Assembly (NCBI RefSeq): GCF_000798815.1
Contig: NZ_JTLD01000004.1
Coordinates: 124,001 to 188,000, forward strand
DNA length: 64,000 nucleotides
Direction: 5' to 3'
From: Alistipes sp. ZOR0009
GTDB taxonomy: Bacteria > Bacteroidota > Bacteroidia > Bacteroidales > ZOR0009
Positions 25,929 to 34,303 of this stretch are shown one piece after another (the first letter of the stretch is position 1; the number at the start of each line of letters is the position of its first letter). Made by a program: the position numbers and the translations under genes. The notes under the pieces are model-generated. The model ran no database searches. It was not told the origin of the DNA and saw only the letters and a program-made list of their open reading frames with translations.

Positions 25929-26525
25929 TTACCCATGTTCGCTATCTCTAATATCATCAACACTAACCAACTTGTTGATAATAGCATATATTGTCAATCC
26001 CGAGATTGATTTAATCCCCAACTTTCTCGATATATTTTTCCTATGGGTAACAACCGTATGTGGAGAAATGAAGTTTTTGTCAGCGATTTCTTTACTCGAT
26101 AACCCCAAAGCAACGTCCCTAATAATATCCTTCTCTCGAATAGTAAGTTCCTCGGTAGCATCATCACCTATACTTGCCCGCTTATCAGAAATTAAGGCTT
26201 CAAAACGCTGCTGTAATTCAGGTAACTGCTGCTGCACGCAAAGATACTCCACTCCCTCAACTAAACTTTGCGGTTTCTCGTTGTACATGCAAACAATCAG
26301 AATATTGTAGCAAAAGCATGCCCGTAGGATCGATTCCATGCATGAATTACTAAACAAATCTTCCCCCACAACCAGAATGTTAGGACGAATTCGAGCGACA
26401 GCCATAGCAACATCTTCTTCCGTAATTTCGGGTTGAATAATACTTTTATCGATCCCCTCTATTAATGATCGTACCCCCAGCTGCAGCAAATCTGGACTTA
26501 ATAATGATATGACAGAGAAGCTCAT
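25929..26525 (-). CDS. LuxR-type regulator with a receiver-like domain lacking the phospho-Asp
   Basis: A 198-residue regulator. The C-terminal LuxR/FixJ helix-turn-helix (about 125-187) is well kept: LTIREKDIIRDVALGLSSKEIA and SPHTVVTHRKNISRKLGI in two pieces. The N-terminal 115 residues look like a receiver fold, yet the position of the phospho-acceptor reads NILVVGEDLF without Asp at the end of the strand. So it is a pseudo-receiver, probably controlled by a partner. Its ATG overlaps the stop of the hemerythrin gene by one base (TAATG). That protein is the obvious candidate partner. Confidence 0.85.
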   Translation of the reverse strand: MSFSVISLLSPDLLQLGVRSLIEGIDKSIIQPEITEEDVAMAVARIRPNILVVGEDLFSNSCMESILRACFCYNILIVCMYNEKPQSLVEGVEYLCVQQQLPELQQRFEALISDKRASIGDDATEELTIREKDIIRDVALGLSSKEIADKNFISPHTVVTHRKNISRKLGIKSISGLTIYAIINKLVSVDDIRDSEHG

Positions 26526-27247
26526 TATTTCCTCCTTTTTAATTCCTCTTCCATCGCAACAACCTTAGGTATCAGCACTTTTTCTTCTATACGAGAATGA
26601 TCATCAAGGTCGTTATTTAAATGGAATAGTTTTTCTAGAATATCAAATGCCAATATGCTATCGCTCTCTTGCGGAACGTACTTTACGATTAAATTTTTTA
26701 GATCATCAAGCTTTTCTTCAATGTTGGTGTGCTCCTGAAGAAAATCCGTAATAGTATACTCCTTAAATTTACGCGCCATTTCTACCGGAAATGCTTCCTC
26801 CTCAAAAGATTGCTCCACTGCCAAAGCGTACGGAAACATATACTCATCTTCCGCATAAAAATGCTTCTCCATTTCGCTTCTATACTCGTTAAAAAAGTTG
26901 CGAATCAAACCGTTATAGGAAGATGATTTTGTCTCGCTCGCATACAACTCAAACAGATTTGCCAACTCGGGGAGTTGCTCTAAAATATACGCCCTATGTG
27001 ACCTTCTCAAATAGTTCACAATCTCTCCAACAGAGAAGGTAGTAAGATGCTCTTCTGGAAAGTAGTGCGGATCATTATAGGTATTCAGTATTGCTACAAC
27101 AAAATCAGGATTAAGCCCGTTTTTTAAGGAAACCTCCCGCACAGTAGCATCTCCAAAACCTAAAGAAATCCCAATTTTATGAATAACCGATAAAAGATGG
27201 TGATTTAGATAAATCACCTCTGCCATTTTTGATGAACTTGAAATCAT
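26525..27247 (-). CDS. hemerythrin-domain protein, ScdA-like N-terminus
   Basis: A 240-residue cytosolic protein. Residues 10-60 resemble the DUF542/ScdA N-terminal domain, and 75-235 a hemerythrin-like four-helix bundle. Candidate di-iron ligands are H84, H129, E133, H173, E177, H217 and E221, in the usual HxxE-type blocks (RSHRAY, EKHFYAEDEY, EHTNIEEKL, DHSRIEEK). Such proteins sense or repair oxygen, NO or iron damage. It lies upstream of a LuxR-type regulator and is translationally coupled to it, so it may act as the sensing partner. A second in-frame start, M8, would begin at 27226. Confidence 0.85.
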   Translation of the reverse strand: MISSSSKMAEVIYLNHHLLSVIHKIGISLGFGDATVREVSLKNGLNPDFVVAILNTYNDPHYFPEEHLTTFSVGEIVNYLRRSHRAYILEQLPELANLFELYASETKSSSYNGLIRNFFNEYRSEMEKHFYAEDEYMFPYALAVEQSFEEEAFPVEMARKFKEYTITDFLQEHTNIEEKLDDLKNLIVKYVPQESDSILAFDILEKLFHLNNDLDDHSRIEEKVLIPKVVAMEEELKRRK

Positions 27248-27327: not shown

Positions 27328-27353
27328 AGCCTCCGTATTAAAATACGAAGGCT
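27328..27353 (-). terminator. terminator of the era-der transcript
   Basis: A 10-bp stem with one mismatch (27328-27337 with 27344-27353), followed on the minus strand by five T. Lies 18 nt after the der stop. Confidence 0.75.
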
Positions 27354-33829: not shown

Positions 33830-34303
33830 ATGAAAATAGACCTCATTCTAATTGGCAAAAGCGATCAAAAATACCTACAGGAGGGAATTGACATCTACCT
33901 AAAAAGGCTGAAGCACTACTGCACCTTCGAACTCAAGGTTATTCCAGATATTAAGTCTACCAAAAATATGAGCGAAGAGCAGCAAAAAGAAAAGGAAGGC
34001 GAGCAGATTCTCAATATGGCCAAAGACGCCGACTTTCTTATGCTACTTGACGAGCGAGGTGATCGGTTTTCTTCTACAGAATTTGCTAACTTTATAGAGA
34101 AAAGACAAATTGCAGGAACCCGAAAACTGTGTTTTGTGGTTGGTGGACCTTACGGCTTCTCTAAGGAAGTGTACGCCAAAGCGACCTCCAAAATGTCGCT
34201 ATCTGCAATGACCTTTTCGCACCAAATGGTCCGACTAATATTTGTAGAACAGCTTTATCGAGCATTTACCATAATTAATGGAGAACCTTACCACCATAAG
34301 TAA
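33830..34303 (+). CDS. rlmH: 23S rRNA pseudouridine1915 N3-methyltransferase RlmH
   Basis: SPOUT-class methyltransferase that modifies pseudouridine 1915 in helix 69 of 23S rRNA. The 157-residue protein has the SAM-binding knot with VVGGPYGF (about 105) and the C-terminal HQMVRLIFVEQLYRAFTI and GEPYHHK. Length is exact for the family. Its last 26 nt overlap the start of a large kinase gene in another frame. Confidence 0.96.
   Translation: MKIDLILIGKSDQKYLQEGIDIYLKRLKHYCTFELKVIPDIKSTKNMSEEQQKEKEGEQILNMAKDADFLMLLDERGDRFSSTEFANFIEKRQIAGTRKLCFVVGGPYGFSKEVYAKATSKMSLSAMTFSHQMVRLIFVEQLYRAFTIINGEPYHHK

Follow-up and report, generated by a model that had tools for sequence, protein, structure and literature searches.

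The question raised by this locus is whether a hemerythrin-domain protein, rather than a kinase, may provide the input of a LuxR-type regulator whose receiver domain has lost its phosphorylation site. The window, which is the whole stretch of 64,000 nt analyzed here from Alistipes sp. ZOR0009, carries on its minus strand a gene for a hemerythrin-domain protein of 240 aa (27247–26525), immediately upstream of a gene for a LuxR/NarL-type regulator of 198 aa (26525–25929). The stop codon of the first gene and the start codon of the second share one base in the motif TAATG, read directly at 26523–26527, and the hemerythrin protein exhibits six di-iron ligands, namely H84 (26996–26998), H129 (26861–26863), E133 (26849–26851), H173 (26729–26731), H217 (26597–26599), and E221 (26585–26587). 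A preliminary description had proposed this one-base overlap between a hemerythrin protein with a full ligand set and a regulator, and the gene positions, the TAATG motif and all six ligands are confirmed. No kinases are found among the direct neighbors of the pair. On the same strand, a hairpin followed by a T-run can be read directly from the sequence at 27329–27352 and likely terminates the GTPase gene that lies upstream, der by sequence; the hemerythrin-LuxR pair therefore probably has its own promoter.

The regulator ends in a GerE DNA-binding domain (residues 126–181, 25983–26150; Pfam GerE, 56.6 bits with a cut-off of 23.5). Its N-terminal part (residues 1–119, 26169–26525) shows no match to the Pfam receiver families at E-values up to 1. 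In the AlphaFold model of the regulator (pLDDT 90.5), this part adopts a receiver fold with a best VIA-align Z of 13.7 (rmsd 2.2 over 115 residues), from which helix alpha-4 is absent. The beta-3 strand ends at residue 54, the phospho-Asp position, which is Gly in the window regulator (26364–26366), and the family profile (kpdlliiN) aligns this position with the last letter of the VraR sequence KPDLILMD. No conserved Asp is recovered at this place, as judged by the end of the beta-3 strand and by the profile alignment with VraR, and the acidic pair and the lysine are absent as well, in agreement with the earlier view of a receiver-like domain without phospho-Asp. Across 164 full-length regulators, the phospho-position is occupied by Asn in 120, by Ser in 13 and by Asp in 11. 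Only one of the 11 Asp-bearing proteins also has the acidic pair and the Lys, and it is a bystander located beside a fusion protein: this complete NarL-type regulator (L158, 5200–5901) directly precedes a receiver-less hemerythrin-GerE fusion. The two congeners of the window regulator (L037 and L038) have Asp54 and are devoid of the acidic pair and the Lys. Four NarL-type regulators of the same genome (L222, L223, L224, and L227) have kept both Asp and Lys. A further GerE protein of the source genome (L226, contig C60) has a receiver-like N-terminus without phospho-Asp (PDLIIYH), followed by an additional middle domain; loss of the Asp is therefore by itself nothing special.

A genomic-context search for the co-occurrence of both families, suggested in the preliminary description, reveals that the regulator is coupled to hemerythrin in 183 of 186 family loci (163 adjacent and 20 fused), which rules out chance adjacency. 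The 186 loci comprise the fetched sets, the first six loci and the second pair of the source genome; they are best-ranked matches, some of them hand-picked from lower ranks, and represent 183 distinct hemerythrin sequences, as three sequences each occur under two loci. By fetched set, the partner is present at 28/29, 38/40, 30/30, and 80/80 loci, the last being the named set, i.e., the best 80 of 496 relatives, which includes species of Bacteroides, Phocaeicola, Parabacteroides, and Alistipes and includes neither P. gingivalis nor B. thetaiotaomicron. A search of 148 genomes of the phylum places the regulator next to the six best hemerythrin loci and next to none of the following 24, and 196 of 295 genomes of the order contain a hemerythrin match at 1e-10. 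The ends of the unfused genes lie −14 to +32 bases apart in 71 of 72 measured pairs, the start of the 72nd having been mis-set. One locus (L125) has the swapped order, with the LuxR gene first and the hemerythrin gene second, and has kept the coupling. Three loci are without a partner. One of them (L056) lies at a contig end with about 450 bases of downstream contig remaining and is counted as partner-less; at the other two (L095 and L097) the partner is absent despite flanking sequence. The branches of the latter two hemerythrins are long (1.95 and 1.93), and both proteins look as if freed from constraint.

In the fusion proteins, hemerythrin runs straight into GerE with no receiver in between. 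This was read in seven proteins, and 13 further fusions were assigned by profile range and length. For two fusions the range of the regulator profile starts at residues 33 and 38 and covers hemerythrin sequence; one of them (L134) was read directly and the other (L203) was judged to be a fusion from its length of 344. These receiver-less fusions are the strongest sign that hemerythrin acts as the input module. A quick tree of 93 rows, 10 of them RIC-type, places the coupled family on one side of a branch opposite the RIC proteins with a support of 100, with a warning of long branches at the join between the two groups. On the same tree, the fusion label requires seven changes, at least five of which are forced by starred branches. 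The source genome contains two pairs, its best regulator matches scoring 196 and 175 bits and the next 70, and the second pair is located on contig C4 (64993–66245; L031). The window pair lies outside the clade formed in the quick tree by this second pair and members from Bacteroides, Parabacteroides, and Alistipes. Clustering of the flanks of the 80 named loci yields, besides the hemerythrin cluster (71 loci), no cluster exceeding 15 of 80 and no neighbor that names a target. Near the pair, a BlaI-like repressor recurs at 10 and a cluster of membrane proteins at 11 of the 80 named loci, both names resting on sequence reading.

A regulator built in this way around a hemerythrin domain has been published before, and the window pair is a further example of the CdhR kind. 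The P. gingivalis operon PG1236-PG1237 (cdhR) is reported to be up about 7-fold without iron and the B. thetaiotaomicron operon BT0519-BT0520 16- to 20-fold, PIN17_RS10465 of P. intermedia is described as the fused form, and the term used is hemerythrin-domain containing regulator (PMC10434189). The iron-regulation tables of the same paper give 598-fold for the DUF2023 gene BT0516, 326-fold for the flavodoxin gene BT0517 and 133-fold for the flavodoxin gene PG1858, and list flavodoxin, DUF2023, TonB, TetR, FeoB, and the hemerythrin-LuxR pair as iron-induced (PMC10434189). CdhR is stated to regulate hmuYR, its iron binding being described there as yet to be demonstrated (PMC10434189), and is cited elsewhere as an activator of hmu which is lowered under microaerophilic growth (PMC10101095). 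No paper announcing a test of the mechanism was found in the literature on hemerythrin together with CdhR, with LuxR and Bacteroidetes, or with Bacteroides transcriptional regulators and nitric oxide, or in that on BT0519/0520.

When 172 non-redundant upstream regions were scanned for dyads, ATAC-N10-GTAT was identified in 18 (0.8 expected), along with nested dyads, and the full candidate site is AATACCTA-N4-TAGGTATT. With a threshold of 12 bits, a matrix built from 22 seeds finds matches in 46 of 184 family upstreams (the 22 seeds and 24 non-seeds; null rate 0.0005) and in none of 24 RIC upstreams. NarL is described as preferring inverted heptamers separated by two base pairs, as in the engineered 7-2-7 site TACCCCTAAAGGGGTA (PMC4549865), and the candidate site equals this NarL site in its TACC...GGTA ends and in its spacing. 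At the second pair of the source genome, a site scoring 13.0 bits lies at −142. Upstream of the window pair the matrix finds no palindrome (best score 1.5 bits), its two congeners likewise have none, and no dyad is enriched among 40 upstreams from its subfamily. The best matrix match inside the window, at 33870 (13.2 bits), falls within an open frame (33830–34303) and was taken as chance.

Candidate targets next to the sites were clustered as 101 frames in both directions, many of which must sit on the wrong side of the site. The clusters contain hemerythrin (8), two groups of TonB-type receptors (7 and 3), flavodoxin (6), TetR (5), porin-like proteins (4), enolase (4), a small His-rich protein (3), and FeoAB (2), and 51 of the 101 frames are singletons, including a CobN-like protein and DUF2023 once each. 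A NarL-type palindrome is present ahead of many of these operons and ahead of gene types of iron starvation. Pfam supports the names of the tested target members, with no match for the tested porin-like and His-rich proteins, and the label “porin-like” is a guess. The five sites of the source genome lie 69 bases ahead of a flavodoxin gene, 53 ahead of a DUF2023 gene, 54 ahead of a gene for a porin-like protein, 61 ahead of that for the His-rich protein, and 70 ahead of a gene whose product has a sub-cut-off TonB_C match. A search of this genome for HmuY gave no match, and no control match either. The palindrome also lies 54–68 bases ahead of enolase in four genomes (L261, L271, L276, and L281), which is unexpected for an iron regulon. 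The small His-rich protein occurs at a palindrome in three genomes (L255, 2582–2926; L272, 2623–2979; L307, 2116–2466), the first of these proteins being without a Pfam match.

Sites with at most one mismatch are present in 19 of 20 chosen genomes, where a reversed-pattern control gives 0 or 1 per strand; these 20 were chosen mostly for an already seen site, whereas the set of 295 genomes of the order is unchosen. In the latter set, the mean number of sites is 2.17 in the 194 genomes with the pair and 0.69 in the 98 without it, the reversed-pattern control being 0.41 for each group (p about 2e-9 in a rank test that ignores kinship). Without the 20 chosen genomes, the mean is 2.00 and p about 2e-8. 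Matches were counted on both strands, which gives every perfect palindrome a count of two; the same applies to the control. Two genomes with RIC-type scores only (G219 and G264) were set to absent, three fragments (G222, G231, and G392) were left out, and other genomes with RIC scores only were kept as absent, as was one with a single partial match (G440, E 3.5e-5). Furthermore, a site is missing from 67 of the 194 genomes with the pair and present in 31 of the 98 pair-less ones. Within families, pair-less genomes of at least 90% completeness give 13 families for the link, 5 against and 12 ties (one-sided p 0.048), and all pair-less genomes give 14, 9, and 15 (p 0.20). The link between palindrome and pair is therefore strong across the order and weak within families, and kinship may account for much of the order-wide link.

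This pattern bears on the alternative that the palindrome is a Fur, TetR or DtxR-type site and that the hemerythrin-LuxR operon is just one target of it, sensing something else. The operon is iron-induced according to the published tables (PMC10434189), a TetR gene is itself a predicted target (5 sites), a repressor site before iron-starvation genes would appear alike, and the presence of sites does not clearly track that of the pair within families. Nevertheless, the site has the 7-2-7 geometry of NarL, and 69 of 74 pair-less genomes searched contain a Fur match, yet these 74 average 0.55 sites compared to 0.34 in the control, which argues against Fur as the binder and is no proof for the LuxR protein. 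In addition, the flavodoxin transcript is reported to fall to 0.60 in a mutant of Har, the P. gingivalis Fur orthologue, so it is not repressed by Har (PMC4222909). Taken together, we regard a foreign repressor site as rather unlikely, albeit worth serious consideration.

A second alternative concerns the hemerythrin protein, which could be a RIC-type protein of iron-sulfur repair or NO stress that merely shares an operon with the regulator. The protein matches Pfam Hemerythrin with 46.1 bits (cut-off 25.3). Its AlphaFold model (pLDDT 92.6, pTM 0.90) was compared with solved chains, of which those of ScdA (Z 14.3, rmsd 2.7 over 153) and of YtfE (Z 13.6) resemble it most, the ScdA/YtfE structures as a group ranging from Z 14.3 to 13.5; Foldseek alone gave no match for the model at E ≤ 0.001. 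The six ligands lie on a four-helix bundle and are all kept, the complete set being present in 181 of 186 family members. Hence, the comparison with ScdA made in the preliminary description holds for the fold and the six ligands, but it fails for the Cys-Cys pair, which is absent from the N-terminal ScdA-like part: this part aligns with the ScdA_N region, and LGFG occupies the place of the pair. ScdA_N (PF04405) has no match anywhere in the genome in a search whose controls did match. A Cys pair is present in 19 of 24 RIC-type homologues, compared to no Cys at this place in the eight commonest family patterns, which cover 162 of 186 members. The window hemerythrin scores 63.1 bits with the NCBIfam RIC model TIGR03652, under the curated cut-off of 204.7, and a true RIC enzyme was rejected on these two grounds, the missing Cys-Cys ScdA_N domain and the low score. 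Furthermore, none of the 24 RIC-type homologues is coupled to the regulator (flank of about 1.5 kb), and a plain RIC protein would hardly be expected to fuse with GerE repeatedly. A repair protein as operon bystander is thus improbable.

Within the family, the window hemerythrin deviates at two residues, R24 (K) and C40 (S), both of which are common to 68 of 75 aligned members. Five hemerythrins (L072, L084, L089, L091, and L092; families f138 and f142) retain a single one of the six ligands along with the LuxR partner. At the six ligand places these proteins have N, R, D, E/T/A, H, and R, and they form one clade (99) spanning the two families, a pseudo-hemerythrin regulator whose ligands have gone in concert. 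Iron is therefore dispensable for the coupling in that clade. Elsewhere in the source genome, two short single-domain hemerythrins are encoded in tandem (contig C46, 39291–40169).

With respect to the signal, the preliminary description had suggested oxygen, NO or redox. The published expression of like operons and the predicted regulon point to iron starvation first and oxygen second, and nothing was found that favors NO in particular. Binding of c-di-GMP via the VpsT-type motif, W[FLM][TS]R, was also considered and rejected, as the motif occurs in none of the 164 regulators. That the LuxR protein answers another signal (a small molecule, a second messenger or tyrosine phosphorylation), with hemerythrin as an iron-fed accessory, is very improbable even though CdhR has been proposed as a possible c-di-GMP effector (PMC10101095) and is named 20 times in work on a tyrosine kinase of P. 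gingivalis (PMC4082711), since that motif is missing and hemerythrin is the sole recognized input domain of the receiver-less fusions.

On balance, we consider it moderately probable that the two genes together encode a kinase-free, CdhR-type switch, with iron, possibly oxygen, as input and iron genes as output. Here, hemerythrin would be the input, its di-iron site changing state between loaded and empty with the iron supply, and possibly with oxygen. This state would be passed by contact to the non-phosphorylatable pseudo-receiver of the LuxR protein, whose GerE domain would then bind or leave the palindromic sites, and their occupancy would tune genes of iron acquisition and iron sparing. 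Hemerythrin as the input in place of a kinase, the core of the earlier proposal, is well supported by the order-wide coupling, the repeated fusions and the loss of the phosphorylation site; physical contact, the nature of the signal and the direction of control are parts of the model that we infer. Likewise, the hemerythrin-LuxR family presumably binds the palindrome, and the window pair may share these targets even though no site lies upstream of it. The window pair itself is most likely an iron-responsive, kinase-free sensor-regulator of the CdhR kind, its weakest link being the target, as it has no site of its own, none is found in its subfamily, and two shared hemerythrin residues are changed. 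The stretch TVVTHRKNIS, by which GerE would recognize DNA, is found in both pairs of the source genome, their recognition stretches being almost identical. With DNA-reading helices this similar, the window pair could be a paralogue that responds to a different signal and acts on the same operators.

Iron control in Bacteroidetes is poorly understood, and an order-wide sensor-regulator pair with a predicted site and a target list makes this question directly testable. CdhR-kind operons in P. gingivalis and B. thetaiotaomicron and the fused form in P. intermedia were already known. New here are the loss of the RIC cysteine pair, the several origins of the fusions, and the palindrome upstream of the operons and of iron genes. 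The family also provides an example of a receiver that, having lost its chemistry, has been co-opted or displaced by a partner that binds metal. As a tentative proposal, to which we give somewhat less than even weight, hemerythrin-LuxR could be the missing iron regulator of the Bacteroidales, a di-iron sensor standing in for the histidine kinase and acting on or replacing the receiver, which would control flavodoxin/DUF2023, TonB-receptor, Feo, and heme-uptake genes via the candidate palindrome, beside or instead of Fur.

Among known systems, the CdhR operons resemble the window pair in having a hemerythrin gene directly before a LuxR-type gene, as judged by published gene arrangement, and differ in that the window pair branches apart from the clade of its own genome's second pair and the Bacteroides, Parabacteroides, and Alistipes members. 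With NarL/FixJ response regulators such as VraR, LiaR, and NarL, the window regulator shares the receiver fold and the GerE domain, and the candidate operator has NarL geometry. Unlike these proteins, it has lost the phosphorylation site with its Asp, acidic pair and Lys, its model is without alpha-4, and a hemerythrin partner replaces the kinase. The RIC protein ScdA (9r7j and 9j47) and E. coli YtfE (5fnn) have the fold and the six di-iron ligands in common with the window hemerythrin, which in contrast has no Cys pair, scores below the curated cut-off and is coupled to a regulator. Streptococcal RitR (5u8m and 5vfa), a regulator with a role in iron uptake whose receiver has no phospho-Asp, is alike in controlling iron genes through such a domain; RitR senses through its own cysteine, whereas in the window pair sensing would fall to a second protein, the di-iron hemerythrin. 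Finally, vertebrate FBXL5 uses a hemerythrin domain as a sensor of iron and oxygen and acts via protein degradation rather than through a DNA-binding partner; its likeness to the window pair, by description, lies in hemerythrin serving as an iron and oxygen sensor.
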